26,920 nt of DNA, taken from positions 1 through 26,920 of the IMG/VR virus record IMGVR_UViG_3300025913_000096. One strand, given 5' to 3'. A model generated the notes under the pieces. It was not told where the DNA came from. It ran no database searches and was given only the letters and a program-made list of their open reading frames with translations. The stretch's first letter is position 1, and every line of letters starts with the position of its first letter. The DNA comes from a virus. Both the position numbers and the translations under genes were made by a program. Shown in pieces: positions 1 through 20,796 of the stretch.

Positions 1-150
1 CGGCAGTCCGCTCTCGCTGATCACAACGTATCCATTCCCGGTCGCGCCTTCGCATTGGAATCCCTCCAACTCGGCGAGTTGGCTCTTGAGAATGGCGATC
101 GTATCGGCTTTGGCCTTCAACATCTCGCCTTCGGTGTATTGCTTAGTCAT
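1..150 (-). CDS. Small hypothetical protein, N-terminal part
   Basis: A leftward reading frame starts at ATG 150-148 and stays open to the window edge (50 codons seen), so the gene is cut off. AGGAG lies 5 nt before the ATG. The visible N-terminus begins MTKQYTEGEM and continues with a heptad-like stretch (ILKSQLAELEG) that could form a short coiled coil, followed by a Gly/Thr-rich part. A sigma-70-like promoter lies about 50 bp upstream, so this is probably the first gene of a further leftward transcription unit. No family was recognised. Confidence 0.6.
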   Translation of the reverse strand, partial: MTKQYTEGEMLKAKADTIAILKSQLAELEGFQCEGATGNGYVVISESGLP

Positions 151-201
151 ATCGGCTCCTGGTTGTTTCTGTTGCGTTTGACTTCGGATGATGCGGAACC
201 T

Positions 202-230
202 ATTTTGAGTCAGAAGTGCGCCAGAGTCAA
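202..230 (-). promoter_or_regulatory. Sigma-70-like promoter, leftward
   Basis: Read on the minus strand, TTGACT (230-225) and CAAAAT (207-202) are separated by exactly 17 bp. The site lies in the 101-bp gap between the gene ending at 252 and the gene starting at 150. Predicted transcription start is near 195, giving a leader of about 45 nt. The -10 resembles the CAGAAT of the two larger leftward promoters. Confidence 0.55.
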
Positions 231-251
231 CGTACACTGGCGCTTTGATGA

Positions 252-497
252 TCAGAACGAAAGACAAAGAGGCTTGCGCGCACGTCCTTCGGCAACGGCG
301 AGTGACATGTCATTCTTCTGACGGTCGGTCATATCGCCTTTGAGACCGTGCGTCGCGAAGTAAGCCGGAACCCATTGATCGAGGACGACCTGACTCGTCT
401 CGTACACACAAATGCCGGTGGCGCCGTTTTGCTTCATGTTGGCAACTTCCCAGTCCTGGATTCCCAGGCGGTACTGCTCCTCTTTGGTCAGCTTCAC
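252..497 (-). CDS. Hypothetical protein (81 aa)
   Basis: The start chosen is GTG at 497, because AGGAG sits 8 nt upstream; a TTG at 515 in the same frame has no better site. The protein begins VKLTKEEQYRLG and is soluble, mixed-charge, ending in a basic Arg/Lys segment. No domain was recognised. It is the last gene of the long leftward run that begins near 4161, and a promoter for the next gene follows it. Confidence 0.6.
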   Translation of the reverse strand: MKLTKEEQYRLGIQDWEVANMKQNGATGICVYETSQVVLDQWVPAYFATHGLKGDMTDRQKNDMSLAVAEGRARKPLCLSF

Positions 498-511
498 TGA
501 TGAATCTCCTA

Positions 512-721
512 TCAAGGATAAACGAAATCGAACTGCCGGCCGTCCTCATAGAACTCACGGACGGTGACTGCGAAGTCGGACGCACGCCAGATCGCGGCGA
601 TGCGCATTGCGGCTTGCCTGCAGCCGGAAGGGCCGTTGTGATCCGCAGCAGAGAACGTGCGCTTTTGCTCTTGCCCATTCTTCATGGCGTGGACGCGCAC
701 AGATGTGACGACGTTGCTCAT
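512..721 (-). CDS. Hypothetical protein (69 aa)
   Basis: ATG at 721 overlaps the TGA of the preceding gene as ATGA, with AAGGTG just upstream, so the two are probably translationally coupled. The protein begins MSNVVTSVRVHAMKNG and alternates hydrophobic residues as in a small beta-rich fold, ending in FDFVYP. No known family was recognised. The next gene starts 14 nt after its stop. Confidence 0.65.
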   Translation of the reverse strand: MSNVVTSVRVHAMKNGQEQKRTFSAADHNGPSGCRQAAMRIAAIWRASDFAVTVREFYEDGRQFDFVYP

Positions 722-996
722 ACGGACACCTTTTCCATCGGGCAGGCCGTCTCAGGTTGCAGGCCCATGTGCGCCATTCCGCACACCACGGCTTTTCGGT
801 CATAGTTCGATGCGAGCATCATGCCACACCGCTTGCAGCGCCAAGCCTCATCCAACTTCAGATCGATCGACATTGCATCATCGATCTCACGACTTCCCAG
901 ATTGGCGATGGCGAACAGGATGGCGCAGGCCACAGCCATTCCTGCGAAGAATATCCCGAAGGCGAGCGCCAACGATCCAAGGTTCACCATTGTCAT
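718..996 (-). CDS. Membrane-anchored small Cys-rich (zinc-ribbon-like) protein
   Basis: This 92-aa protein has one N-terminal transmembrane segment at about residues 6-31 (LALAFGIFFAGMAVACAILF), then a soluble tail with CKRC at about 53-56 and two further Cys (CGMAH, ACPM) that could complete a zinc site. GGAG lies 8 nt before ATG 996. Its start overlaps the stop of the HNH gene as ATGA, and its stop overlaps the next start the same way. Topology would place the metal site in the cytoplasm if the N-terminus is outside. Function unknown. Confidence 0.65.
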   Translation of the reverse strand: MTMVNLGSLALAFGIFFAGMAVACAILFAIANLGSREIDDAMSIDLKLDEAWRCKRCGMMLASNYDRKAVVCGMAHMGLQPETACPMEKVSV

Positions 997-1370
997 ATGT
1001 CTAGCTCCAATTGTTCGATTGGCATATCAGGCCACTCCCAGCAGCCCTTTATGCTGTTTGCTTTCCAATGTGCCACCTGCATATTGTAATCGACGTGCAA
1101 GCCTGATACTACCTGGACACCGCCAATTTTGCCGATGAGCGGAACAACGTGGTCCACGACATGAAGCTCTCCGGTCTCTCGCGTTAGGCGCCTCGCCTCC
1201 TTGTACAGCGCGGCAATTGCCTTGCGGTCAGCCCAAGGTGGTGTCGCGCGACGCTCATGGCCCCGTCTTATAACGCCTTCCTTCCCCTTCGGACGGACCA
1301 AGCCTCGGCGCTTCTCCACAGGCGCGAAGAGCGGGCCGTGGCACCAGCCGCTGATGAGATCGAGGTTCAT
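993..1370 (-). CDS. HNH endonuclease
   Basis: The 125-aa protein carries an HNH core: VVDHVVPLIGK around residues 71-81 (D73-H74), then SGLHVDYNMQV at about 89-99 (H92, N96), and Asn105 in HWKANS. The segment TPPWADRK...ARRLTRETGE before the core is the usual helical lead-in of phage HNH proteins of the type that assists terminase cutting at cos sites or acts as a freestanding nicking enzyme. The start at 1370 lies 3 nt after the previous stop and lacks a strong Shine-Dalgarno, so expression probably relies on coupling. Fold assignment is firm; the biological role is inferred. Confidence 0.82.
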   Translation of the reverse strand: MNLDLISGWCHGPLFAPVEKRRGLVRPKGKEGVIRRGHERRATPPWADRKAIAALYKEARRLTRETGELHVVDHVVPLIGKIGGVQVVSGLHVDYNMQVAHWKANSIKGCWEWPDMPIEQLELDI

Positions 1371-1373
1371 AGT

Positions 1374-1607
1374 TCAGCGGATTACCAGAGTCAGGTTGCG
1401 CTGCAGCCTTCCAGAGATCATATGGATCAGCGCCACAGCTTCGACCGCAGACAGGTCGATCCAAAGCTCGCCATCGTCACCGTAGAACTTCAACCGAACT
1501 CTGGCAAGACTTTCGCCTTCGCCAGCAGGAGCGAACGCCGCAGTAACATCAACATTGACCTGCTCCGACTTCTCAGGCCTCTTGCAAAAACGCTTGTGGG
1601 CTTTCAT
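1374..1607 (-). CDS. Hypothetical protein (77 aa)
   Basis: The ATG at 1607 is preferred over upstream codons because AGAGG lies 7 nt before it. This makes the gene overlap the 3' end of the upstream gene by 35 nt, as in other genes of the run. The protein begins MKAHKRFCKRPEKSEQ, with a basic start, then a beta-rich middle (VRLKFYGDDGELWIDLS) and a helical end. No family was recognised. Confidence 0.6.
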   Translation of the reverse strand: MKAHKRFCKRPEKSEQVNVDVTAAFAPAGEGESLARVRLKFYGDDGELWIDLSAVEAVALIHMISGRLQRNLTLVIR

Positions 1608-1953
1608 TCTCGAACCTCTCAATATCCGGATCAATCCAATAGTCATCGTCACCATACTCGCGCTTCGATCCGTCCACGCGATACCAGCAGCGCAACGAAC
1701 CGCGCCGATGCATGGCACCAGTCATATTCCCAGCCCAGCTATACCCACAGCACATGCAACCGAGCGAACGATTCAGCGCCGTCCTCCGGTTCATCCATCC
1801 GTCGACGCGAAAGATTGGAACTCGCAGCCCGCGTATCGTCACATAGCGCTTGCCGCAGACTCTGCACTGTGGAACGATTTTATACGCGTCTGGATGTTGC
1901 GGCAGAACTCTGCGCGTATCGCAATGGCGGCAGCGGCAGTGAATTCTAGGCAC
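1573..1953 (-). CDS. Cys-rich zinc-binding phage protein (126 aa)
   Basis: The frame carries CRCRHC near the N-terminus, CRVCGKR about 30 residues later, and then CMCCGYSW followed by HRRGSLRCW. This arrangement resembles small phage zinc-binding proteins that end in an HRRGS..C element. The start is taken at GTG 1953 because it gives the natural beginning VPRIHCRCRHC and overlaps the stop of the upstream 36-aa peptide (GTGCCTAG), suggesting reinitiation. No Shine-Dalgarno is visible, and longer starts at TTG 2031 or GTG 1989 cannot be excluded. The acidic C-terminus (GDDDYWIDPDIERF) is distinctive. The role is unknown; nucleic-acid or metal binding is a guess. Confidence 0.6.
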   Translation of the reverse strand: MPRIHCRCRHCDTRRVLPQHPDAYKIVPQCRVCGKRYVTIRGLRVPIFRVDGWMNRRTALNRSLGCMCCGYSWAGNMTGAMHRRGSLRCWYRVDGSKREYGDDDYWIDPDIERFENESPQAFLQEA

Positions 1954-2056
1954 GATGTTGTGCTGACTGATCTTTGTCTTGTCGCCCACCAGACGCGCAC
2001 CATTGACCTGCCATGAATGGCGCAATGACAAACAGCAAGAACAAACGCCATTCCAT
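1946..2056 (-). CDS. Small membrane peptide (36 aa)
   Basis: ATG at 2056 shares a base with the upstream stop (TGATG) and has the best Shine-Dalgarno of the neighbourhood, AGGAGG 5 nt before. The peptide begins MEWRLFLLFVIAPFMAG, a hydrophobic segment long enough to span or insert into a membrane, then a polar tail to the TAG at 1946. It could be a signal-like or membrane micro-protein, or a leader whose translation controls the next gene, whose GTG start overlaps this stop codon. Confidence 0.5.
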   Translation of the reverse strand: MEWRLFLLFVIAPFMAGQWCASGGRQDKDQSAQHRA

Positions 2057-2325
2057 CACAACCTCCTCCACTTCACACATTCTTCCCAAATGCGCCTGTC
2101 GAGTTCAGTGGCGTGGTGAATGGATCGGCTCCACCCATTGTCATGAATGAACGTGCATCCGCCCATGCACTGGATGCCGTGCCAGCCGCCTGCATGGGCG
2201 GATGTGATCTCGCACAAGGCAGTGGAGCCGTCATTGTAGCGCACGAGCGTGCCTGGGTGAAGTTCTTCGGCCGTCGCGCGCTCGCCTCGTATCGGGTTGT
2301 TCACGTATTCATCTATCGCACTCAT
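2056..2325 (-). CDS. Hypothetical protein, SH3-like beta protein (89 aa)
   Basis: AAGGA lies 7 nt before ATG 2325, which overlaps the previous stop as ATGA. After a short helical start the protein has LHPGTLVRYNDGSTALCEI, typical of a small beta-barrel, then a Cys/Gly/His-rich part (IQCMGGCTFIHDNGW). The stretch resembles LRPGDIVKHEDAPCEVLCV of the gene just upstream, so the two may be diverged tandem copies. Function unknown. Confidence 0.6.
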   Translation of the reverse strand: MSAIDEYVNNPIRGERATAEELHPGTLVRYNDGSTALCEITSAHAGGWHGIQCMGGCTFIHDNGWSRSIHHATELDRRIWEECVKWRRL

Positions 2326-2522
2326 TTCTGATTCCTTTCTGATTGTTCAGGCCTGCGAACGAAATCTACCTCGTTTGGATGGACGAAAGACGCACACAAC
2401 GTGCGCTTGTTCATGATGAAGATAAGCGAACGCGCCGGGAAGACGCAAAGGACTTCGCACGGCGCGTCTTCATGCTTGACGATGTCGCCTGGGCGCAGGT
2501 CAGAACGGGATTGCTTCGTCAT
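2322..2522 (-). CDS. Hypothetical protein, SH3-like beta protein (66 aa)
   Basis: The first ATG of the frame is at 2522, inside the 3' end of the MazG-like gene (23-nt overlap). No strong Shine-Dalgarno is visible, so coupling is likely. The protein begins MTKQSRSDLRPGDIVKHEDA and looks like a compact beta domain. It shares the L-x-P-G-x-[LI]-V-x4-D pattern with the next gene downstream. No family was recognised. Confidence 0.55.
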   Translation of the reverse strand: MTKQSRSDLRPGDIVKHEDAPCEVLCVFPARSLIFIMNKRTLCASFVHPNEVDFVRRPEQSERNQK

Positions 2523-2964
2523 CGATAACAACAACTTCGCCGCCTGCCAGCTTCTCCGATCGTTCTAATAGCATGATGCCAGCCGAAACCCTGTCAGACA
2601 CCAAGTTGAACTTCTCCATCACCGCTGCGCCCAGATCGATGCCGAGTTGCGACATGGCCAGATCGAGATAGATGATTGCGTCAGCGGCTTCGCGCTGAAT
2701 CTTCAGCAGCACATCGTTCGGTAGATCGCGCAAGCGGCCTTCGTCCAGGCAATCCTTCACCTGCTGTCCATAGTCGCCGCGTGCTGCCTTCTTGAGCTCA
2801 CCGGAGAGCTCACCGCACTCGCCATAGAACGCGTTCATCCAGCGATCGATGGACCAGTCTGACCCGTCCGGCTTGCTGTGCGCGATGTTTCCACGGCGAT
2901 CACGGAAGCGCGGCAAACGCATCAAGTTCGCCTCGCGCAAAGCTGCGAATGTAAGCTTGTTCAT
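2500..2964 (-). CDS. MazG-like nucleotide pyrophosphohydrolase
   Basis: The 154-aa protein has the all-alpha NTP pyrophosphohydrolase pattern: E49-x2-E52 in FYGECGELSGELKK and E92-x2-D95 in REAADAIIYLDLA, the acidic residues that bind Mg2+ in the MazG superfamily. The following helix ends in MEKFNLVSDRV, as is common in phage MazG proteins. The family hydrolyses (d)NTPs or (p)ppGpp to monophosphates plus pyrophosphate; phage copies are thought to adjust host nucleotide or alarmone pools. AGGAG lies 11 nt before ATG 2964, which overlaps the previous stop as ATGA. Substrate cannot be judged from sequence. Confidence 0.8.
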   Translation of the reverse strand: MNKLTFAALREANLMRLPRFRDRRGNIAHSKPDGSDWSIDRWMNAFYGECGELSGELKKAARGDYGQQVKDCLDEGRLRDLPNDVLLKIQREAADAIIYLDLAMSQLGIDLGAAVMEKFNLVSDRVSAGIMLLERSEKLAGGEVVVIDDEAIPF

Positions 2965-3188
2965 ACTGGTTGAATCTCCTTCAATGTCACAAACAGATCA
3001 TACAGCGGAGGCCCGGTGAGCGATGAAGCTTGAACCAGGTTGTGTTTCACAGCCACCACGACGAATCTGCGATCGAGCAGCGTCACCGTATCTGTGCCGC
3101 TTTTCAGCGCGACGATTGCGTCTTCACAATGATTCAAAGACACACGGCCGAAGTACACTGTAGCGAGGAGTGATTGCGTCCACATCAT
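2961..3188 (-). CDS. Hypothetical protein (75 aa)
   Basis: The start is taken at ATG 3188 (MMWTQSLLATVYFG). A GTG at 3197 overlaps the upstream stop and is an alternative. GGAGGAG lies just upstream, 11 nt from the ATG and 2 nt from the GTG, which leaves the choice open. The protein is beta-rich (DRRFVVVAVKHNLV...YDLFVTLKEI), without a recognisable domain, and is coupled to the MazG-like gene by an ATGA overlap. Confidence 0.55.
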   Translation of the reverse strand: MMWTQSLLATVYFGRVSLNHCEDAIVALKSGTDTVTLLDRRFVVVAVKHNLVQASSLTGPPLYDLFVTLKEIQPV

Positions 3189-3193
3189 ATTAA

Positions 3194-3424
3194 TCACCGC
3201 TCCTCCAGCGAGAGCGCCGAGATCAGACCGTTGCTGAGCTTTTGCAGGTGGACGATTTCATTCTCAAGTGACTTGATGTACGACACGGCGTGGCGCAGAA
3301 CACGCTTCTCGTCGCTGTTGGCGAAGTGCGGATCAGCAGCGAAGTCTGCAAGTGCCTTGCACACGTGCACCGGCTTCGCGAGATCAGGGTGCGGACAGTT
3401 CGCCTGATTGAAATCGAAGTTCAT
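3194..3424 (-). CDS. Hypothetical protein with C-terminal coiled coil (76 aa)
   Basis: ATG 3424 overlaps the upstream stop (ATGA) and has GGAG 8 nt before it; the longer frame start at 3466 would lie inside the upstream gene. The protein begins MNFDFNQANCPHPD and ends in a heptad-like helix (SYIKSLENEIVHLQKLSNGL), suggesting a dimer. No family was recognised. Confidence 0.6.
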   Translation of the reverse strand: MNFDFNQANCPHPDLAKPVHVCKALADFAADPHFANSDEKRVLRHAVSYIKSLENEIVHLQKLSNGLISALSLEER

Positions 3425-3741
3425 CGGCCAATCTCCGGCACGCGGTTGTAGTTCTCCAGAACGCAATTGCTAAAGTCGTCCGCTGCCCATTGGGGTGGAT
3501 TTTGAATGTTGACGTTGTGCGCCGTCTCACCGCGCTGATACGCCAACAACTCGTCCTCCAGGACGTTGATCGGGTTGCGATACCGAGGATCGTCGCTGAT
3601 GTTCAGACGGTCGACCTTACGCGTAACAAGCAACTCCAAGATGTGGTGTTGCGGACCGTTTAGCGCATTGATCAACTGCACGAGAGCCGGACCGCTTACG
3701 ACGACTCGGTCAGGAATCGGATTCTTCAGATTATTCGACAT
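3421..3741 (-). CDS. Hypothetical protein (106 aa)
   Basis: ATG 3741 with AGGAG 8 nt upstream is clearly the start (MSNNLKNPIPDRVVVSG). A helical segment (ALVQLINALNGPQHHILEL) is followed by a polar, Asn-rich tail. The gene is preceded by a 114-bp gap holding a 10-bp perfect inverted repeat. It begins the tight ATGA-linked series that extends to about position 250. Function unknown. Confidence 0.65.
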   Translation of the reverse strand: MSNNLKNPIPDRVVVSGPALVQLINALNGPQHHILELLVTRKVDRLNISDDPRYRNPINVLEDELLAYQRGETAHNVNIQNPPQWAADDFSNCVLENYNRVPEIGR

Positions 3742-3769
3742 CGATAGGACTCCTGCGGTTGAATGTGAA

Positions 3770-3804
3770 AATGGCGCGCAATCCAGTGTAGGACGCGCGC
3801 CATT
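3770..3804 (-). terminator. 10-bp perfect inverted repeat, possible terminator or leader hairpin
   Basis: AATGGCGCGC (3770-3779) and GCGCGCCATT (3795-3804) are perfect inverse copies with a 15-nt loop. On the minus strand the stem is followed by TTCACA, only a short T-run, 29 nt before the next start at 3741. It may act as a weak or regulated terminator for the gene ending at 3856, or as a leader structure. The rest of the 3742-3855 gap shows no convincing promoter. Confidence 0.45.
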
Positions 3805-3855
3805 CAAACGAACGGACTACGGGTTAAGTTTACCTCAGTGCTGTGGCCCCGTATG

Positions 3856-4161
3856 CTACACAGCACCGGACTCCCGCAAGATGTCATCTTCGCTTTTTAA
3901 CTTGCCTTCGTGGTCGATCCACGCAACCTCCTCGCCTTTCTGGATGGACACGGCGCATCGTTTCGTCTTAACGTTCGCGACGATCGAGCGCGCGACCCAG
4001 CCTTGCTCGCCTGCGACGCGGAGAGCTTCGGCTTGGGCCACGGTCATGTATCGGGGTGCAGCTGCACGGATGCGCTTTTGTTGCGCGGTCTTGGTCTTGC
4101 TGCGAGCGGTTGGGACGGAAAGAGCTTTGAGCGCTTGGTTTGCAATAGTCTGAGCAATCAT
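3856..4161 (-). CDS. Hypothetical basic protein (101 aa)
   Basis: Two adjacent ATGs (4164, 4161) are possible; GGAG is 7 nt before the second, which is chosen. The protein has a basic, Ala/Lys/Thr-rich N-terminal half (ARSKTKTAQQKRIRAAAPRY), a TVAQAEALRVAGEQGW segment and a beta-rich end containing a single Cys. No family was recognised; nucleic-acid binding is possible from charge only. Confidence 0.6.
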   Translation of the reverse strand: MIAQTIANQALKALSVPTARSKTKTAQQKRIRAAAPRYMTVAQAEALRVAGEQGWVARSIVANVKTKRCAVSIQKGEEVAWIDHEGKLKSEDDILRESGAV

Positions 4162-4204
4162 CATGAATCTCCAAAGGTTAGATCAAAGGAATTAATGCAC
4201 CTTT

Positions 4205-4265
4205 AGTATAGATGATGATTGCGCGCACGAGTGGTACACCAACTGTCAAGTACGATCAATTGGTG
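4205..4265 (-). promoter_or_regulatory. Leader/promoter region with imperfect inverted repeat
   Basis: This 5' region precedes the gene at 4161. On the minus strand it holds TATACT (4210-4205) as a possible -10 and a 9-bp inverted repeat, CACCAATTG...CAGTTGGTG (4265-4237), with an 11-nt loop and one G-U-type mismatch. A TTGACA at 4249-4244 lies 33 bp from TATACT, too far to pair with it. The region is probably regulatory, but no full consensus promoter can be drawn. Confidence 0.3.
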
Positions 4266-4295
4266 CGCGAGCCAACTTATAATGTACGGACTACT

Positions 4296-4430
4296 TCAGA
4301 CTTTCGGCGGAGCGAGGCTGCTGCTTATGATGGCGAGGGAGATTTCGGCGAGAAGATGGTTGACCAGCGAGCCCCGGCAACCGCGCGGCAGTGTCGCCAG
4401 CGACAAGAGCCCTTGAGCTATCTTTGACAT
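4296..4430 (-). CDS. Small hypothetical protein (44 aa)
   Basis: ATG 4430 has a strong AAGGAG 6 nt upstream and lies downstream of an extended -10 promoter and a promoter-overlapping palindrome. The frame begins MSKIAQGLLSLATLPRGCRG and ends in a moderately hydrophobic helix (NHLLAEISLAIISSS) before TGA at 4296. It could be a membrane-active or regulatory micro-protein. Evidence is the promoter, ribosome site and clean open frame only. Confidence 0.5.
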   Translation of the reverse strand: MSKIAQGLLSLATLPRGCRGSLVNHLLAEISLAIISSSLAPPKV

Positions 4431-4449
4431 TTCGGTCTCCTTGGTTCGA

Positions 4450-4480
4450 ATGCCAACTTACTTTGGCATTGATTATATCA
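4450..4480 (-). promoter_or_regulatory. Extended -10 promoter with operator-like palindrome
   Basis: On the minus strand TGATATAAT (4480-4472) is a perfect extended -10 (TGnTATAAT); no good -35 is seen 17 bp upstream, as expected for this class. Immediately downstream ATGCCAA and TTGGCAT (4469-4450) form a perfect 7-bp inverted repeat with a 6-nt loop covering the predicted +1. The palindrome could be a repressor operator or a 5' RNA hairpin. Confidence 0.55.
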
Positions 4481-4545
4481 TAGGTCAAATCCGTGGAAAT
4501 AAAAGCGGAACAAACAGGGCCGCACCCTGCCAGTGTACGAGTGTG

Positions 4546-4575
4546 GACAAAAAGAAGCCCGCGAGTGAGCGGGCT
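4546..4575 (-). terminator. Intrinsic terminator, leftward
   Basis: On the minus strand AGCCCGC-TCACTC-GCGGGCT (4575-4556) forms a perfect 7-bp GC-rich stem, followed directly by TCTTTTTGT. It lies 35 nt after the gene ending at 4610 and upstream of the extended -10 promoter, separating two leftward transcription units. Confidence 0.8.
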
Positions 4576-4609
4576 GAGTCTGGAGCCAGAGAATTTTTAC
4601 AAATGACCG

Positions 4610-4987
4610 TTACACAGGAGCGTCGGCGCCTCCGCTTACATCGATCGACCATACCGTGCCGAGCGCAACTTGCATCGCGCGGTGAAGCGAGTTCCGAAAG
4701 TCGTCGAGCGCCGCATGCTCATCCGCACTGAGCTCAGAGTGCAGCTTGCGCATCTCCATCACCTTCATCGACAAATCGGCCTCGTGCCAGCTGAGCAGCC
4801 ACTCCTGGTAATTGTCGCTACTGCACAATTCGAAGCTGTTCTTGAGGCCGTGGACCCATCCGCCGACGCGACTGAGACTCCGGCAGGCATGGTCATAGTG
4901 CGCCTCGCTGATGGCCATTAAAGCCTTTACGAGCGTCCTGTTGAACTTGATTCTGAATGTCGGCTTTCCATGCACTGTGATCTTCAT
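4610..4987 (-). CDS. Hypothetical protein (125 aa)
   Basis: ATG 4987 shares a base with the upstream stop (TAATG), with AGGA 7 nt before. The protein begins MKITVHGKPTFRIKFNRTLVK, then helical segments containing SEAHYDHACRSLSRVGG and a long amphipathic stretch (DLSMKVMEMRKLHSELSADE). No domain was recognised. It is the last gene before the 4546-4575 terminator. Confidence 0.65.
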   Translation of the reverse strand: MKITVHGKPTFRIKFNRTLVKALMAISEAHYDHACRSLSRVGGWVHGLKNSFELCSSDNYQEWLLSWHEADLSMKVMEMRKLHSELSADEHAALDDFRNSLHRAMQVALGTVWSIDVSGGADAPV

Positions 4988-5403
4988 TAAGCGATCCTAT
5001 CTGTGGTTGGGAAGAAGTCGTTCAGAACTCGGACGAAACGAAGGTGCTGGTTGGCACGCGATCGGTACTCGCCAGAAAGACGCTCGCGATCCGCCACAGA
5101 CTTCGGCAGAACGCAGATCGACATGCGCCTATCAACGTCGTTCGCGCGCTTCGAGTAATCCAGGTACTGCGAGTAGTGCCACTTCCGAAGATCGCGCAGC
5201 TGGTCCAGGTTGCCGAGCAGCAAAGGCGCCTCACGCTCGTTCGGACTGTACAGAGCATCGTTGATCGACTCGGCGAACGGGAGCGCTCGTATAACGTCCT
5301 TTGCCTCTTCGATCGCGGCCACGGAATCCTTGTGGCCGGCTATGCGCATCCTAGAAATCGCGACATTCAGTCGGCTGAACAGCGTGCTACTTGCCTGCTT
5401 CAT
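4987..5403 (-). CDS. Hypothetical protein (138 aa)
   Basis: The start at ATG 5403 is supported by its ATGA overlap with the 53-aa membrane-protein gene upstream and by AAGGA just before. The protein is largely helical and highly charged (EEAKDVIRALPFAESIND; DLRKWHYSQYLDYSKRANDVDRR). No domain was recognised. Its stop overlaps the next start as TAATG. Confidence 0.65.
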   Translation of the reverse strand: MKQASSTLFSRLNVAISRMRIAGHKDSVAAIEEAKDVIRALPFAESINDALYSPNEREAPLLLGNLDQLRDLRKWHYSQYLDYSKRANDVDRRMSICVLPKSVADRERLSGEYRSRANQHLRFVRVLNDFFPTTDRIA

Positions 5404-5561
5404 GTCCTTGTTGTTCCGTCTGAGTTGCAGCAGTTATGAGGATAGTAAATCGGTTTGATGAATACGCCAAGGACTCGCTGAAGAAGAAGTCCGAGCGCGC
5501 CACCGATGACGGCCAGCAGCAGGAAGCTGTCCATCTTGGTAAGGAGTTCGATGCAGGTCAT
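5400..5561 (-). CDS. Small membrane protein (53 aa)
   Basis: ATG 5561 has GAGG 6-7 nt upstream. The peptide has one clear transmembrane helix at about residues 12-36 (SFLLLAVIGGALGLLLQRVL), with a short Cys-containing tail (PHNCCNSDG). Its TGA overlaps the next ATG as ATGA, which supports real translation. Size and topology are compatible with a holin-like or accessory membrane protein, but there is no lysis gene nearby, so no function is assigned. Confidence 0.6.
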   Translation of the reverse strand: MTCIELLTKMDSFLLLAVIGGALGLLLQRVLGVFIKPIYYPHNCCNSDGTTRT

Positions 5562-5583
5562 AGTCTACCTCAGTGAGTGATTG

Positions 5584-5599
5584 CCCGCCGTAGCGGGCG
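5584..5599 (-). other. Intergenic GC hairpin, copy 1
   Basis: On the minus strand GCCCGC-TACG-GCGGGC is a perfect 6-bp stem with a 4-nt loop, placed between the stop at 5606 (TAACCACC flank) and the start at 5561, and followed by AATCACTC. There is no T-run, so it is not a classical terminator. It shares flanks with the hairpin at 5775-5790. Confidence 0.55.
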
Positions 5600-5605
5600 C
5601 GGTGG

Positions 5606-5767
5606 TTAGACGCGGAAATGTTTAAATCCGTACTTGATCGCCACAACAATGCTTTCGGTGTGCCATCCCGATTTACGCGCACGCTTCGCGAATACCTTTG
5701 CACGGCGCGATGCATAGCGCTCAATGTTCATCAGTTTTTGGTATGCGTTCTTCACCATCATCCCCAT
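5606..5767 (-). CDS. Small basic hypothetical protein (53 aa)
   Basis: The frame runs from ATG 5767 to TAA 5606; a downstream ATG pair three codons in is an alternative start. The protein begins MGMMVKNAYQKLMNIERYAS and is strongly basic (SRRAKVFAKRARKSGWH), ending KYGFKHFRV. It is flanked on both sides by similar GC hairpins. No family was recognised; RNA or DNA binding is suggested only by charge. Confidence 0.5.
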   Translation of the reverse strand: MGMMVKNAYQKLMNIERYASRRAKVFAKRARKSGWHTESIVVAIKYGFKHFRV

Positions 5768-5774
5768 CGAGTGA

Positions 5775-5790
5775 GCCGGGACTGCCCGGC
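5775..5790 (-). other. Intergenic GC hairpin, copy 2
   Basis: On the minus strand GCCGGG-CAGT-CCCGGC is a perfect 6-bp stem with a tetraloop, between the stop at 5798 (again followed by CCACC) and the start at 5767, then TCACTC. The flanks match those at 5584-5599, and the stem is the same as at 12282-12297. Confidence 0.55.
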
Positions 5791-5797
5791 GTGGTGG

Positions 5798-5986
5798 TTA
5801 TTTGGTGCTGCGCGGCATCTTCCATTTCGCCGCATCGGCTGGGAATCGCTCGTACTCGATACCGTTTTCGATGAATTGCTCCCAAAGAACTTTTTTCGTG
5901 ATCGCGCAGCCAACGCTTTTTGCGTCCGCCTTTACTTCTTCGTAGAGCGTCGCGAATTCTTCTCGTGCCTGCTGTTCGGTATTCAT
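5798..5986 (-). CDS. Hypothetical protein (62 aa)
   Basis: ATG 5986 is chosen because AAGGGG lies 7 nt before it; ATG 5992 is too close to that site. The protein begins MNTEQQAREEFATLYEEVKA and is a mostly helical acidic-basic domain with ITKKVLWEQFIENGIEYERF. It is the first gene after a good sigma-70 promoter at 6024-6052. No family was recognised. Confidence 0.65.
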   Translation of the reverse strand: MNTEQQAREEFATLYEEVKADAKSVGCAITKKVLWEQFIENGIEYERFPADAAKWKMPRSTK

Positions 5987-6023
5987 CGTCATTCCCCTTC
6001 GTGTTGCGTTGTCGATATGAAGA

Positions 6024-6052
6024 ATCATACGCCACTTAAACAAAGTGAGCAA
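6024..6052 (-). promoter_or_regulatory. Sigma-70-like promoter, leftward
   Basis: On the minus strand TTGCTC (6052-6047) and TATGAT (6029-6024) are separated by 17 bp. The spacer contains CACTT-TGTTT-AAGTG, a perfect 5-bp inverted repeat that may be a repressor site. Upstream, at about 6066-6107, two further imperfect inverted repeats separate it from the gene ending at 6117; none has a T-run. Confidence 0.65.
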
Positions 6053-6116
6053 GATTTTTCTATCACTCAACTGAATCGATTGAGAGCCGAACCGAAGTCC
6101 GGCCTCAGAGAGGAAG

Positions 6117-6797
6117 TTACTCGGCGTCGATCTGGACGATGGAGAAGACGTACTTCTTACCGTTATGCTCGAACGTCTCGCTGCCACCGTTCTTGCGGTG
6201 CGCTTCTTTGAGCTTCAGGCGGAAGCGGATGTGCTTGTTATCCGGGAGTCGGTTGGCGCGGAAGGCGTCGCGCGTCGATTTGTACTGGCCGATGACCTTA
6301 CCGTCCAGCTTCACTTCCACGCCGTCGCGATGGAGGCGAGCTTTTCGAACTTCCGCATCCGCCCAAGTCGCCGCCACGCCTTCGGAGTTCGAGGCCTTCG
6401 CGGTGGAGCGCGAGGACGGCGTATAGTGCTGCGTTTGCGGCGAGCTTTGGATCGAGGACAGGACACTTTGCAGCGCGTTGAAAGCCGAACCGCCTTGCGC
6501 GGCGCGACGGCTCTCTTTCTCTTCGCGCTCCTCGTCGGTCTCTTCCGGCTCCTCTTCGTTCGCAACGGCGTCCGGGTGTACATTCGTGTCCGCTTTTCCG
6601 TTCGAAGGGGCCGGCGCAGCGGTTTCGGCGTCGATCTCTTCGAGCTTCGCGATCAAGTCGGCGACTCGCTTTTCAGCGGTGGCGCGATCGGCGAACTTTT
6701 TGATGATCTGGGCTTCATGGGAAACTTTTTGGACGTTCTCGTTGTAGAACGAGACGAGTTCAGCGGTCTTGGCTTCGGCGATGTTGATCGTTTGCAT
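6117..6797 (-). CDS. Hypothetical phage protein (226 aa), first gene of the leftward block
   Basis: ATG 6797 has AAGGAG 6 nt upstream and follows the shared leftward promoter. The N-terminus (residues about 10-55) carries AELVSFYNEN...KKFADRATAEKRVADLI, a helical motif I recognise from many unassigned phage proteins. An acidic, low-complexity linker (EEEPEETDEEREEKE) follows, and a C-terminal domain (about 150-226) rich in Lys/Arg and beta strands (VEVKLDGKVIGQYKSTRDAF; KHIRFRLKLKEAH). The C-terminal part might bind nucleic acid. Position next to the terminase raises the question of a packaging role, but it does not look like a known small terminase subunit. Confidence 0.7.
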   Translation of the reverse strand: MQTINIAEAKTAELVSFYNENVQKVSHEAQIIKKFADRATAEKRVADLIAKLEEIDAETAAPAPSNGKADTNVHPDAVANEEEPEETDEEREEKESRRAAQGGSAFNALQSVLSSIQSSPQTQHYTPSSRSTAKASNSEGVAATWADAEVRKARLHRDGVEVKLDGKVIGQYKSTRDAFRANRLPDNKHIRFRLKLKEAHRKNGGSETFEHNGKKYVFSIVQIDAE

Positions 6798-6856
6798 TTC
6801 GGGCTCCTTTCTGATTTCTTTCTGGGTCAGCGCTTGTTCGTCAGCGCATGAATAGG

Positions 6857-6885
6857 ATTCTGAGGCATATCGTCACGTCCGTCAA
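6857..6885 (-). promoter_or_regulatory. Shared leftward promoter, copy 1
   Basis: On the minus strand AAAGTTG leads directly into TTGACG (-35, 6885-6880), then exactly 17 bp, then CAGAAT (-10, 6862-6857). The same sequence elements and spacing recur at 12845-12873. It would drive the 226-aa gene at 6797 with a leader of about 50 nt. The remaining part of the 6798-7010 gap has TTCACTGAC twice (about 6893 and 7000) and a TAGAAT at 6976, with no good rightward -35. Confidence 0.7.
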
Positions 6886-7010
6886 CAACTTTCTTCACTG
6901 ACTGTGTGAAAAGATGGAAAAATATTTTTAATCGGTAGTCCAAGTCTGATAGTACATGGCCAGCCGCAGACGGCTAGAATACCCTGAACCAAATCGTTCA
7001 CTGACCAAAG

Positions 7011-12557: not shown

Positions 12558-12797
12558 TCAGATGACGAGTTTCTTAATGGTCGGAAGAGCCGATACCGGC
12601 GTTCTGTACGAGGGGCTGAAGGTAAACGAATTTCCGTTCTGCTTTACTACTATTATGTAATTGCTGCCGACTTGAATGCTGACCGTATCTGTAATCTTTA
12701 CTTCGCCGTCCTCTGACTGATTTGCCTCGGATACGGAAATGGCCTTGATACCTTGCAGTTCGAGGAATTTGGCGACTTGCGCGGCTTTGAAATTCAT
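12558..12797 (-). CDS. Small hypothetical protein (79 aa), first gene of the block
   Basis: It starts in the repeated ribosome-site element at 12795-12810, about 40 nt after the predicted start of the shared leftward promoter. The protein begins MNFKAAQVAKFLELQGIKAI, a helix-strand opening, then a beta-rich domain (VSIQVGSNYIIVVKQNGNSF). Its amino-acid sequence is not clearly related to the next two genes despite the identical starts. Confidence 0.65.
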   Translation of the reverse strand: MNFKAAQVAKFLELQGIKAISVSEANQSEDGEVKITDTVSIQVGSNYIIVVKQNGNSFTFSPSYRTPVSALPTIKKLVI

Positions 12798-12844
12798 GGC
12801 GTTTAGCTCCGGTTCGTACTTCGTTTCATCACATCTGAGACTCA

Positions 12845-12873
12845 ATTCTGATCCATCTTTCTGGCGCCGTCAA
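12845..12873 (-). promoter_or_regulatory. Shared leftward promoter, copy 2
   Basis: On the minus strand AAAGTTG leads into TTGACG (-35, 12873-12868), 17 bp, then CAGAAT (-10, 12850-12845). The -35, spacing and -10 are identical to 6857-6885, while the spacer differs. It would drive the nine-gene leftward block from 12797 to 8509. Confidence 0.7.
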
Positions 12874-12940
12874 CAACTTTGCGACACTATTTTCAACTTT
12901 CTGAGTTTCTTCAACGATATCAACAGTTTACTGACTGTCA
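12870..12940. promoter_or_regulatory. Iterated TCAAC motifs in divergent region
   Basis: TCAAC occurs at 12870, 12893, 12911 and 12920 on the plus strand, and ACTGACTGT follows at about 12930. TCAACAACTTT and ACTGACTGT also occur together at about 6882-6904 in front of the terminase gene. The sites lie between the leftward promoter and the portal start and may bind a regulator. No consensus rightward promoter was found. Confidence 0.4.
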
Positions 12941-12945
12941 GGTAC

Positions 12946-15372
12946 ATGACTGTGGCCGTACAATACGCGCGATCACACCATATCCCGCGCGCCATGCTCC
13001 CAATGATTCTCAAGAAACTGTTCTCGCGCTCGAAGGCGCCCGAAGCCAAGCCGAACGAGGAGCAGCGCCGCGAAGCAATGGCCGTGGACCCATTGGACCC
13101 TGTGGCCCGGAGGAGCGGTTCCATGTCGCTTTCCGACTGGGACAGGAAAGAGCCACAGTTTCATGAGATAAGACTCAGAGCGGCCAACGAGTTCCCTGTG
13201 TTTGATGGCCTGCCCGGTGACGAAGTCGGTGTGACGACACAAAAGGCGATCGGCGATGCGGCCATGAAGATTCACAACATGGCAATGGACGACGATACCG
13301 GAATGCTCAAGCAAGGGCCGTCCGAGTACGCGGTGCCGGCCGGCTTGCAGGCTTGGTACATGTCCCAGTCGTTCATCGGATATCAGGCCTGCGCCATCAT
13401 CGCGCAGCACTGGCTCGTCGATAAAGCTTGCACGATGGCTGGCGAGGATGCCGCGCGCAATGGCTGGGCGATCAAGGCGCGCGGCGGCGACGATCTTACC
13501 GAGGACCAGCACGAAGAGGTGATGGAGGCCGACAAGGCATTCAAGGTAAAGGACAACTTGATCGAGCTCAACCGCTTCAAGAACATCTTCGGCATCCGCG
13601 TTGCGATCTTCCAGGTGGAATCTGACGATCCGCTGTATTACGAGAAGCCGTTCAACATCGATGGCGTCGCAAAAGGCTCATACAAAGGCATCTCACAGGT
13701 TGACCCGTACTGGATGATGCCTGTGATGACATCCAAGGGCACTAGCGATCCGTCCAGCAAGGACTTCTATGACCCTGAGTTTTGGACGATCAGCGGAAAG
13801 AAGTACCACAAGAGTCATCTGGTGATCGTTCGCGGTCCGCAACCTGCCGACATTCTCAAGCCCACTTATATCTTCGGCGGCGTGCCTCTTACGCAACGCA
13901 TATACGAGCGTGTCTACGCCGCTGAGCGGACCGCGAACGAGGCGCCCTTGATGGCGTTGTCCAAGCGGACGATGGCCATTCACACAGACATGGACCGCGT
14001 TGTCGCCAACCAAACGGCATTCGAAAATCGCCTGATGACCTGGATTCGCTATCGCGACAACCATGGCATCAAGGTGCTGGGCAAGGAAGAAGCGATGGAG
14101 CAGTTCGACATCAATATGTCGGACTTCGACAGCATCATCATGAACCAGTATCAGCTGGTCGCAGCCATCGCGCGTGTGCCTGCCACCAAGCTCCTTGGGA
14201 CATCGCCGAAAGGGTTCAACGCCACTGGCGAGTTCGAGATGCGCTCGTATCATGAGGAGCTTGAGAGCATTCAAGAGCACATCATGATGCCGCTGTTGCA
14301 ACGGCACTATGACCTGATGATGCGTCACCTTGGCCTCGCGACTCAGGTGGAAGTCGTTTGCAACGAAGTCGACTCGATGACGGCGAAGGAGCGCGCTGAG
14401 CTCAACGATCTGAAGGCGAAGACGGCCGAAACGCTCATCAACAATGGGACAATTTCGCCTGATGAAGACCGCAAGCGCATTCGTGAGGACGATAAGAGCG
14501 GTTACAATCAGTTGACGGACGCGGATGCCGAGACCAAGCCTGGACTCTCTCCCGAGAATCTTGCAGAATTCCAGAAGGCCGGCGCGCAGCAAGAGAAAGG
14601 GAACGCTGCGGAGTTAACGGCAGGAGAGAAGACGGGCGAACAGACCGCGCCAGTCACAAAAGACCCTGAAGAGGACACATTGGCTGGAGGCCAGACGGCC
14701 TCGCGATCGACGCTGCAAGCATTGATCCCAGCCATCTTGCACGGTCTCATAAAAGGCAACGAGCAGGACCAACCGGCAGACCCGATTCAGGCTGCGCTTC
14801 TTCTGCTCCTCCATAGTATAATCGGCAAGAAAGATCAAGAGGCTTTGGAGCACGTCGATCCTCCGATCAGAGGCACGGCCCCTGGGACGCGCGGCATCGA
14901 TCCATCAGTCGGTGGGATTCACAATGTTGTCGGAAAGGTCCAGGATTGGAACCCGGCAAAGCTGCCTAAGCTGCGCGTTGGCGGTCTGAATCTCGTCATC
15001 GAAAACCCACGCGGCACGATCCGCAAGGGAATGGATATGGACGGCAAGGAATGGCGAGTTAAGATGCCGCACCATTATGGATTCATCAAAGGGTACGATG
15101 GCGCAGACGGTGATGAGGTGGACTGCTTCGTTGGCCCGAATCCGAGATCGAGCAGCGTATTCGTCGTGAGCCAAAACGATTCACAAGGCGAGTTTGACGA
15201 GTACAAGTGCATGCTCGGATTCGACACCGAAGAAGAGGCAAAAAGGGCATATGATGAATCGTTCACACGCGATTGGGACGGATTTGGATCGATCCAGAGT
15301 ATGTCCATGGACGACTTCAAGAATTGGCTCGAAGCCGGAGAGGCAGCGCGTGCCGCTGAACAAGTGAAGTGA
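12946..15372 (+). CDS. Portal protein fused to a pyrophosphatase-like domain
   Basis: Residues about 60-480 are a DUF1073-type portal, the dodecameric ring at the packaging vertex: characteristic stretches are AGLQAWYMSQSFIGYQACAI, DPYWMMPVMTSKGTSDPSSK, FWTISGKKYHKSHLVIVRG and IARVPATKLLGTSPKGFNA. After a low-complexity linker (about 500-670) comes a second domain at about 676-798 with LNLVIENPRGTIRKG, HHYGFIKGYDGADGDEVDCF and an FKNWLE end. D721-G-D723-E-V-D726-C fits the inorganic pyrophosphatase signature and the phage-associated InPase domain of polyvalent proteins. The start is uncertain: ATG 12946 has only AGG upstream; 12994 and 13003 are alternatives, and the frame is open from 12739. 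It overlaps nothing downstream and is followed 2 nt later by the next ATG. Confidence 0.88.
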   Translation: MTVAVQYARSHHIPRAMLPMILKKLFSRSKAPEAKPNEEQRREAMAVDPLDPVARRSGSMSLSDWDRKEPQFHEIRLRAANEFPVFDGLPGDEVGVTTQKAIGDAAMKIHNMAMDDDTGMLKQGPSEYAVPAGLQAWYMSQSFIGYQACAIIAQHWLVDKACTMAGEDAARNGWAIKARGGDDLTEDQHEEVMEADKAFKVKDNLIELNRFKNIFGIRVAIFQVESDDPLYYEKPFNIDGVAKGSYKGISQVDPYWMMPVMTSKGTSDPSSKDFYDPEFWTISGKKYHKSHLVIVRGPQPADILKPTYIFGGVPLTQRIYERVYAAERTANEAPLMALSKRTMAIHTDMDRVVANQTAFENRLMTWIRYRDNHGIKVLGKEEAMEQFDINMSDFDSIIMNQYQLVAAIARVPATKLLGTSPKGFNATGEFEMRSYHEELESIQEHIMMPLLQRHYDLMMRHLGLATQVEVVCNEVDSMTAKERAELNDLKAKTAETLINNGTISPDEDRKRIREDDKSGYNQLTDADAETKPGLSPENLAEFQKAGAQQEKGNAAELTAGEKTGEQTAPVTKDPEEDTLAGGQTASRSTLQALIPAILHGLIKGNEQDQPADPIQAALLLLLHSIIGKKDQEALEHVDPPIRGTAPGTRGIDPSVGGIHNVVGKVQDWNPAKLPKLRVGGLNLVIENPRGTIRKGMDMDGKEWRVKMPHHYGFIKGYDGADGDEVDCFVGPNPRSSSVFVVSQNDSQGEFDEYKCMLGFDTEEEAKRAYDESFTRDWDGFGSIQSMSMDDFKNWLEAGEAARAAEQVK

Positions 15373-17433: not shown

Positions 17434-18993
17434 GTGAGTGAATTCGTACACAGAACAAACACACAATACACGCGAAGCACATTTACATCACCGAATCCAG
17501 GAATGCCCCAAAGCGCTCGCCAACAAGATCAGAATGGATACCTCCTAATCAGAGGCTGTCCGATTTCGACTTTCGGCATTTTTCAATACAGCGCTGCACA
17601 AGTAGGGTTGCCAGGCGATCCAAACCGGATCGTCAACGTATATCGTCCGGAAGCGGCAGTAAGCGATCCTGAGTATGTGAATTCATTCCAAGTCGTGCCG
17701 TTGATAAACGACCACGAAATGTTGAGTGGATTCCAAGGCGATGAGAGCGCGACGGCCCCGGAAGAATACGGCATCGACGGCGTTCTTTACGACGTTGGCT
17801 ACAAGCAGCCTTGGACTCGCGGTGATCTGAAGATTTTCTCGCGTTCGATGCAAGCCGATTTGAACGCTGGTAAGAAGGATTTGTCGCTTGGATACACATG
17901 CGACTTCGTTTTGGAATCGGGCACGTTCGATGGTCAGGATTATGAAGTGATCCAGACCAATATGCGCGGCAACCACATCGCGCTCGTTGATATCGGCAGA
18001 GTGCCCGGTGCGAAGGTCTTGGACGGAAAGCGTCTTTGCTTTGATAGTCTGAGTTTCTCCACATTTTCTACCAACGGAGGGGCAATCATGCCTAAACCTC
18101 GCAGGGCGCTGGACAGCACCGTCGTCCAGCAATTGCAAGCCCAGCTGAAGGCACTGTTGCCCACCTTCGAACAGTTTCTGAGTGAGGAGGCCAGCGAGCC
18201 TGCCCATCAGGGCGGCGAGGGTGGTGCTGGTGCCGAAGCTGGTGCAGCAAACGCCGCAGCCAGCGGTGAAGAGCAATCGGCCGTGAATGCAGGCGGCGAA
18301 GAAGGCTCGAATGAAACAGGCATCGCCGCCGATCCGAACGCTGCTGAGGCAGGCGGCGAGATGAACGAAGGCGAAGAGGACGGCGAAAACGAAGCCGCCC
18401 TGATGGATGCTCTCAAGCAGGTGCAAGATATCTGCGCGAAACTGATGTCCCAGATGGGCGGCGCGCAAGCCGGCGCAGGCGGGGATGAAGGTGGCGAGGG
18501 CGGCGAGGGCGGCGCTGAAGGCGGGGAATCGAATGGTGCCGAAGGAACCACGGAGGACACCGTTGAAGGCCTGGCAGGCACGGCCCGCGAAGGTGAGGAC
18601 GGCGAAGAAGGCGCCGCGCTCGGAGAGGGCGGACAAGGCAGCGCGTCGGAAGGTCCGGCAGCAGGAAAGCACAAAGGTGCTGACGCTGCGCTTCGTTCTT
18701 TCTATGCTGACGCTGCTCGTAAGAATCGCCTCTACGACCGGCTGTCTCGTGTGGTTGGAGCATTTGACGGGGCAGTGGATGTCGCGGCTGCAACACATGC
18801 TGACATCGCTTCTTACGGGGTGAAGAAACTCGGCATCAAGTGCGCCAAGGGAACTGAGGCGATTGCGCTGGACGCCTATCTCACCGGTGTCGAGAAAGCC
18901 TGCAAGTCGAACGCGGTCACCACAACGAAACAACGCGCGCAAGACGCCGCCGCAGCTGCGGTGCCGGTCATCGAAGCGTACTTCAAGGAGTAA
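17434..18993 (+). CDS. DUF2213 prohead protease-like protein with acidic scaffold-like tail
   Basis: The start is a GTG with a weak upstream site. Residues about 35-205 are a DUF2213 domain (YLLIRGCPISTFGIFQY; VVPLINDHEML; KDLSLGYTCDF; MRGNHIALVDIGRV). By analogy with phage head-maturation proteases, His94 and Ser151 are candidate catalytic residues. Residues about 245-420 are very rich in Gly, Glu and Ala, followed by a helical C-terminal domain (about 425-519). An in-frame ATG at 18088 (MPKPRRALDSTVVQQL) with GGAGG upstream could give a separate C-terminal product, which would suit a scaffold. No other scaffold gene is present before the coat gene. Confidence 0.82.
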   Translation: MSEFVHRTNTQYTRSTFTSPNPGMPQSARQQDQNGYLLIRGCPISTFGIFQYSAAQVGLPGDPNRIVNVYRPEAAVSDPEYVNSFQVVPLINDHEMLSGFQGDESATAPEEYGIDGVLYDVGYKQPWTRGDLKIFSRSMQADLNAGKKDLSLGYTCDFVLESGTFDGQDYEVIQTNMRGNHIALVDIGRVPGAKVLDGKRLCFDSLSFSTFSTNGGAIMPKPRRALDSTVVQQLQAQLKALLPTFEQFLSEEASEPAHQGGEGGAGAEAGAANAAASGEEQSAVNAGGEEGSNETGIAADPNAAEAGGEMNEGEEDGENEAALMDALKQVQDICAKLMSQMGGAQAGAGGDEGGEGGEGGAEGGESNGAEGTTEDTVEGLAGTAREGEDGEEGAALGEGGQGSASEGPAAGKHKGADAALRSFYADAARKNRLYDRLSRVVGAFDGAVDVAAATHADIASYGVKKLGIKCAKGTEAIALDAYLTGVEKACKSNAVTTTKQRAQDAAAAAVPVIEAYFKE

Positions 18994-19653: not shown

Positions 19654-20796
19654 ATGTTGCAACCTACCAAGGCCCGATCGTTCATCGCCGCACGCAAAAT
19701 GCGTCCGTTGTCGATGGACAGCAAGGACATCACAGCAGCTGCTGTGAAAGAACTCGCTGCCAAGTTTGGTATCGTTTTCGATCACTCCGTCGTGCTGGAA
19801 CAGGTCCGACTCTTGAACGAAGTCCAGCCGGGTTCCGGCATGGATGCTGCGTTCGTCGCTCCTGCCACCAGCGCATCGCTGCCGACGCCTGTCCAGTTTC
19901 TGCAAACCTGGCTCCCAGGGTTCATCAAAGTGATGACGGCCGCACGCAAGATCGACGACATCATCGGCGTGAAGACGATCGGAAGCTGGGAAGATCAGGA
20001 AATCGTACAAGGCATCGTCGAGCCGGCAGCGACGGCGACCGAGTACGGCGACTTCACGAACATTCCGCTGGCACTCTGGAATACGAACTTCATCAAGCGT
20101 ACGATCGTGCGCGGTGAGCTCGGTATCCAGGTCGGTTTGCTGGAAGAAGGTCGCAGCGCAGCGATGCGCCTGTCGTCCGCCGAAACGAAGCGCCAAGGCA
20201 GCGCAGTTGGCCTGGAAATCTTCCGCAATGCGGTCGGTTTCTATGGCTGGAACTCCGGCAACAACCTGACGTATGGCTTCTTGAACGATCCGAACCTCCC
20301 GGCGTTCATCTCGTCGTCCGTGACGGGCGGCTGGGGTTCGGCCAACGGCACGTTCCAAGCGATCACCGGTGACATCCGTATGGCGATCGTCCAACTCCGC
20401 ACGCAGTCGCAAGACCAGATCGATCCGGAAAAGGTCGAAATGACGCTGGCGCTGCCCACGGACAAGGTCGATTACCTGTCGGTGACCACCGACTTCGGCG
20501 TGTCTGTTCGCGACTGGCTGGAGCAAACGTACGGCAAGATTCGTGTTGTGTCGGCCCCTGAACTCGGCGCCGCCAACTCCGGATCGGACGTTTTCTACCT
20601 GTTCGCGGAAGAGATCGACAGCGCGATTGACGGCAGCACGGATGGCGGCGAGACGTTCGCGCAGCTGGTCCAAACGAAGTTCGTCACGCTTGGCGTCGAA
20701 AAGCGGGCCAAGTCGTACATCGAAGATTATTCGAACGGCACGGCAGGCACGCTTTGCAAACGGCCCTGGGCCGTGGTGCGCGTCACCGGCATCTAA
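19654..20796 (+). CDS. Major capsid protein (DUF2184 type)
   Basis: The 380-aa product has HK97-fold coat features of the DUF2184 family: an N-terminal arm, [72 protein letters not shown]-like strand ([20 protein letters not shown]), and a C-terminal [13 protein letters not shown]. Spacing to the cement gene is 30 nt with AAAGGAG upstream. A terminator-like hairpin follows. Codon use looks more uniform and GC-ending than in the neighbouring unknowns, as expected of a highly expressed gene. Confidence 0.9.

Follow-up and report, generated by a model that had tools for sequence, protein, structure and literature searches.

What does a phage portal protein gain from a C-terminal extension that resembles an enzyme, and is that extension still able to work as one? 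The question is raised by a single gene in the window, i.e., the whole 26,920-base stretch of viral DNA analysed here. Taken as a whole, the explanation that we regard as best, and as probably correct, is that the extension is a competent hydrolase of the InPase family, carried on the portal as a virion-borne payload.

A portal gene that runs on into an InPase domain

The open reading frame at 12739-15372 (plus strand, as are all window features given below) encodes 877 amino acids and passes from a portal domain through a linker into a C-terminal InPase domain of Pfam family PF18823 without a stop. Judged by the N-termini of relatives, the real start of the gene is probably 12994 or 13003, and the fusion gene is given here as 12994-15372. 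PHROGs keeps the whole fusion as a single family, phrog_4660, under the label 'minor head protein'; residues 7-760 of its 765 align with residues 94-871 of the 877 in the open frame. The portal core (PF06381, Phage_portal_3; 13381-14430, residues 215-564, E-value 5.2e-88) reaches 295.6 bits against a cut-off of 33.8 and spans positions 1-356 of 357, thus representing the full portal model. It is followed by a variable linker rich in A, E, K, G, T and Q (14431-14961), whose dN lies above that of the InPase domain in every comparison. The InPase domain itself (14962-15333, residues 742-865) was placed by a six-frame search, with an E-value of 2.6e-48 and a score of 163.7 bits (cut-off 26.8), over profile positions 11-135 of 135.

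A preliminary description of the locus, made from the letters alone, had assigned a pyrophosphatase-like domain to the end of the portal frame at 14971-15342. Both the assignment and the unbroken frame are confirmed by the PF18823 match, whose borders differ by less than ten bases, and the two stretches that it quoted, LVIENPRGTIRKG (at about 14989-15027) and D-G-D-E-V-D-C, are present as given. A chance match or a pseudodomain is ruled out by the PF18823 E-value together with the selection acting on the domain (see below).

The neighbours make up an ordinary set of head genes, which encode a terminase, a Mu F-like head protein, a head maturation protease (17434-18993; phrog_3778, E-value 9.6e-139; DUF2213), a decoration protein and the major capsid protein (19654-20796; phrog_264, E-value 3.8e-71), in an order resembling the one seen in BcepF1 and in PB1-like phages, e.g., Epa14. 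Ten minus-strand open reading frames of the left arm gave no Pfam match, and positions 1-7000 hold mostly short open reading frames, of which those tested matched nothing in Pfam or PHROGs. The preliminary description had also proposed a MazG-like enzyme of the same genome as a source of pyrophosphate (PPi). This partnership was dropped, as no MazG or MazG-like family (PF03819, PF12643) is present in the six frames of the 26,920-base record, the remaining genome lying outside it.

Relation to inorganic pyrophosphatases

A profile search, named beforehand as a possible refutation of the pyrophosphatase kinship, does reach pyrophosphatases (PPases). A profile of 50 relatives run against the PDB sequences returned the portal of phage Pa193 first, followed by about 30 inorganic pyrophosphatases of solved structure, the latter at marginal E-values of 0.0019 and above. 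When the family was compared, profile against profile, with ten bacterial PPases drawn from genomes, the P-value was 1.1e-6 over 82 columns. In the hhalign alignment, the PPase residues E20, Y55, D65, D67, D70 and D102, a numbering that we take to be that of the E. coli enzyme, are paired with invariant or near-invariant residues of the phage domain. D-G-D-E-V-D-C also fits the PPase signature D-[SGDN]-D-[PE]-[LIVMF]-D-[LIVMGAC], in the form in which the preliminary description quoted that pattern.

The predicted fold agrees with this. An AlphaFold2 model of the InPase domain (pLDDT 89.6) contains strands at residues 26-32, 37-41, 47-51, 55-63, 69-74, 82-89 and 95-102. Searched with Foldseek, the model matched type I PPases only among the 50 PDB matches listed, with a best E-value of 8.4e-5 and a modest structural agreement (TM about 0.47). 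Sequence profiles and the comparison of the modelled structure support a kinship of the predicted fold with PPases, at superfamily distance.

The phage domain resembles type I soluble inorganic pyrophosphatases (PF00719) in its predicted fold and in the core metal residues, including D-G-D-x-x-D. Unlike these enzymes, it stays below the PF00719 cut-off (13.3 bits against 23.5) and shows no recognisable counterpart of the C-terminal PPase helix that bears the Tyr-Lys pair. For these two reasons PPi may not be the substrate; we consider PPi a likely, not a certain, substrate of the predicted hydrolase. The domain is the same as the one that the preliminary description had attributed to Aravind and co-workers, namely the InPase group of Iyer et al. 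2017 (PMC5512222), who describe polyvalent-type InPases as lacking a beta hairpin. The InPases of phage polyvalent proteins (DarB-like and others) share the Pfam family and the nine-residue signature described below; they sit in very large multi-domain proteins, whereas the InPase of the window sits on a portal.

Conservation of the predicted active site

The candidate active site comprises nine positions (E, R, Y, D, D, D, D, E, K), all of them near-invariant in a set of 67 non-redundant relatives; the counts below refer to the sequences aligned at each position. Glu31 of the domain (15001-15003), aligned by hhalign with E. coli PPase Glu20, is kept in 65 of 65, Arg38 (15022-15024) in 66 of 66 and Tyr56 (15076-15078), paired with PPase Tyr55, in 67 of 67; the arginine is also present in all 20 members of a portal-only set that includes the window. 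The D-G-D-E-V-D-C motif (15106-15126) contributes the candidate metal-binding residues Asp66 (67/67), Asp68 (65/67) and Asp71 (67/67), which are aligned with PPase Asp65, Asp67 and Asp70. A second motif, D-E-x-K at residues 96-99 (15196-15207), adds D96, E97 and K99, each found in 67 of 67, with Asp96 aligned with PPase Asp102.

The acidic triad is thus conserved in the relatives together with further residues, and the alignment retains all putative metal-binding acidic positions (E31, D66, D68, D71, D96 and E97). The same nine residues recur in 19 further InPases, sampled by portal similarity alone and in part from records already seen, with one exception in one sequence. The doubt that the preliminary description had left over the three aspartates is largely settled at the level of sequence, which predicts them to be functional. 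Two relatives carry an altered motif: D-E-Q replaces D-G-D in the InPase of L045 (5542-5925) and D-D-E replaces it in that of L032 (3421-3798 of its own record). Because the D-x-D core is changed, the activity of these two copies may be altered or lost.

Comparison of the window with its close relative L001 gave a dN of 0.007 and a dS of 0.366 for the InPase domain (dN/dS about 0.02), and a dN of 0.029 and a dS of 0.305 for the linker. For relatives beyond L001, synonymous changes are near saturation, so that only the contrast in dN is useful there. The InPase domain is under strong purifying selection. The C-terminal domain is very probably a catalytically competent hydrolase.

Distribution and origin of the fusion

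The architecture itself is already published. For phage BcepF1, a fusion of portal and InPase (BcepF1.124) was named by Iyer et al. 2017 (PMC5512222), who considered injection of the InPase possible and offered two candidate roles, PPi clearance or action on a nucleotide induced by infection. The window is a new environmental member of this architecture, to which we add conservation at the level of single residues, the number of carriers, the twofold origin of the fusion and its frequency in a payload-blind sample. Besides that work, no other portal with a pyrophosphatase domain was found in the literature, the coverage of which was incomplete. BcepF1 gp124 shares the PF06381-type portal core, the linker, the C-terminal InPase and a similar order of head genes with the window protein; the domains are about 55% identical, and there is no difference in kind.

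Among sequenced phages, 352 records contain a portal core that is 60-80% identical; when portal core and InPase were joined into one query, leaving out the linker, 347 records matched it over at least 80% of its length. The InPase is therefore practically fixed in this portal group, with about 350 sequenced PB1-like phages carrying the fusion. The more distant portal of Vibrio phage PGA (42% identical, 542 amino acids) has no InPase, which means that a portal can work without the domain.

On the tree of InPase domains, portal fusion requires at least two changes. One fusion clade is PB1-like and includes the window; the other holds the fusions of L059 and L094 alongside InPases that are encoded separately, close to a PF06381 portal (L061, L070, L073). 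In a payload-blind sample of the second portal clade, for which loci were chosen by portal similarity alone, InPase was fused or nearby in 15 of 32 usable non-redundant loci. Set against 470 of 50,697 phage records overall, as counted in a single-sequence search, this makes the association of InPase with the PF06381 portal family well supported.

Position in the virion and possible release

The same fusion is present in gp19 of the Pbunavirus (PB1-like) phages E217 and Pa193, and the sequence of PDB entry 9B41 matches the domain with an E-value of 7.6e-46. The solved structures of both portals are without InPase density, and the main texts of both papers mention no pyrophosphatase. By cryo-EM, residues 97-528 of 765 were built for the E217 portal, whose C-terminal barrel projects into the head and becomes disordered after ejection. 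The Pa193 portal has no density for residues 529-765, and its residues 1-93 went undetected by LC-MS. The linker of the window protein corresponds to the region after residue 528, which places the InPase in the part of the relatives' portals that was not built; a position inside the head is inferred from these cryo-EM data. By analogy with the portal dodecamer of relatives, there would be about 12 copies inside the head at the packaging vertex, each attached through a flexible linker to the face of a portal subunit that looks into the capsid lumen.

A candidate enzyme for processing is the head maturation protease. In both E217 and Pa193, cryo-EM shows the capsid protein only from residue 66 onwards. 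This start adjoins the A-M-D|S at residue 64 of the related Epa14 capsid protein, suggesting a processing site of the head protease. The capsid protein of the window carries G-M-D-A at residues 62-65 (19837-19848) as a putative N-terminal processing site. A putative protease motif of looser form, D-[SA]-[AN]-F or close to it, ends the N-terminal region in 19 capsid proteins, 10 of which fit the strict form [AG]MD[SAE]. Sites of A-M-D type also occur in portal N-termini, in the window portal at about residues 96-100. Of 50 portal N-termini, 16 contain the strict motif; none of 50 linkers or 50 InPases does. Release of the InPase by the prohead protease was set aside on this count, which is a weak negative since the motif is itself inferred and strict; its lack in all 50 linkers weakens the case for release and injection.

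Proposed function and alternatives

In the reading that we favour, the PF18823 domain would act as a metal-dependent phosphoanhydride hydrolase, and the payload enzyme would remove PPi or a nucleotide-like anhydride for the benefit of the phage. It would do so at entry if freed from the portal, or in the particle-producing cell if still tethered. That the putative enzyme is delivered at entry is quite possible, if somewhat short of an even chance, activity in the producing cell is somewhat less likely, and a mainly structural or DNA-related role improbable. Clearance of PPi by some thousand domains would bring little gain over the abundant PPase of the host.

The most probable alternative, albeit an unlikely one, assigns the domain to anti-defence or signalling, as an effector that hydrolyses a nucleotide made by the host upon infection instead of PPi. 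Such a role would fit a predicted active site that departs from that of PPases outside the shared core. InPase is found in large phage polyvalent proteins as well, and together with DarA_N in L087, and a known anti-CBASS domain occurs in other phage proteins with a Mu F-like match, e.g., the TopIB-Acb1 protein of L187. The effector role is also one of the options raised by Iyer et al. 2017 (PMC5512222). Both the substrate and the release from the portal are putative, however, and PADLOC, whose library consists of defence and not of counter-defence proteins, returned no match for the window protein.

It is improbable that the domain is a tethered module for handling DNA or metal during packaging or genome release, as opposed to a delivered enzyme. 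Linkers without a processing motif speak for tethering, as does the fact that InPase adjoins portal cores in the manner of topoisomerase IB (TopIB) domains, whose substrate is DNA. No packaging step is known to generate PPi, though, and a structural role would not call for catalytic-type residues to be conserved so fully. InPase also exists as a separate gene near the portal, so that tethering is not required. A degenerate passenger, i.e., an inactive remnant riding on the portal, could explain the altered D-x-D of L045 and L032, but is highly improbable given the low dN/dS against L001, the nine near-invariant positions and the presence of InPase in practically all phages of the 60-80% identical portal group.

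Topoisomerase IB and other possible portal cargo

InPase is not the only enzyme-like domain on these portals. Scans for the topoisomerase found TopIB fused to PF06381-type portals in 30 loci, near-copies included, and Pfam confirmed a PF06381 fusion in L029, L045, L062, L131 and L149. Three orders occur, namely portal-InPase-TopIB (L029, 3994-7455; L045, 3613-6930; L125, 4471-7428; L133, 2880-6101; L142, 3219-6368), portal-TopIB-InPase (L149, 6201-9464) and portal-TopIB; the six loci named with these orders, L029 and L045 among them, combine all three domains in one protein. By Pfam, TopIB is likewise attached to Mu-type PF06074 portals (L122, 6153-8819; L150, 5391-8777) and to PF04860 portals (L154, 6141-8765; L181, 3873-6362; L184, 409-2667; L189, 3770-6088). 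The fusion is therefore not confined to PF06381, and portals of at least three Pfam families carry it in environmental phages.

Nine representatives all share the Arg, Lys, Arg, Asn and Tyr positions, which we take to be the catalytic residues of TopIB. Isolate phages rarely have a TopIB of this type (2 of 50,697 records at the threshold applied), and no paper on a portal-topoisomerase IB fusion was found within an incomplete coverage of the literature. A partnership of InPase and TopIB was considered and rejected: TopIB occurs in 2 of 32 non-redundant payload-blind loci, a sample with little power for TopIB, and shows no association with InPase (Fisher p = 1). The apparent linkage in earlier loci partly reflects how these were gathered, which also renders a paired test there uninformative. 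Since they are not associated, the two domains look like alternative cargo rather than partners.

Two further observations concern other C-terminal and multi-domain architectures. A 1507-residue protein of L187 (6801-11321) combines GNAT, topoisomerase IB, the anti-CBASS domain Acb1 and a weak Mu F-like match, so that TopIB and a domain with an established counter-defence role occur together in a single head-type protein. The PF06381 portals of L219, L230, L238, L241 and L248 end in C-terminal tails of 210-306 amino acids with no Pfam match, which are possible further cargo domains.

These architectures lead us to a tentative proposal, that the portal C-terminus of environmental phages may be a general enzyme slot, to which InPase and TopIB were attached repeatedly and in both orders, to act on the genome or on nucleotides at vertex passage or at the onset of infection. 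The architectural part draws on observed fusions with intact catalytic residues; the functional part is a guess.

Significance

Therapy cocktails make use of PB1-like phages, and high-resolution structures of their virions exist. About one third of their portal protein is nevertheless without density, and this third includes a conserved enzyme-like domain that the main texts of the structural papers leave unnamed. An active domain would turn this structural ring of the virion into an enzyme carrier as well, as in the payload idea of 2017. Together with the portal-topoisomerase fusions, the wider pattern suggests that enzymes on portals are commoner than has been recognised.
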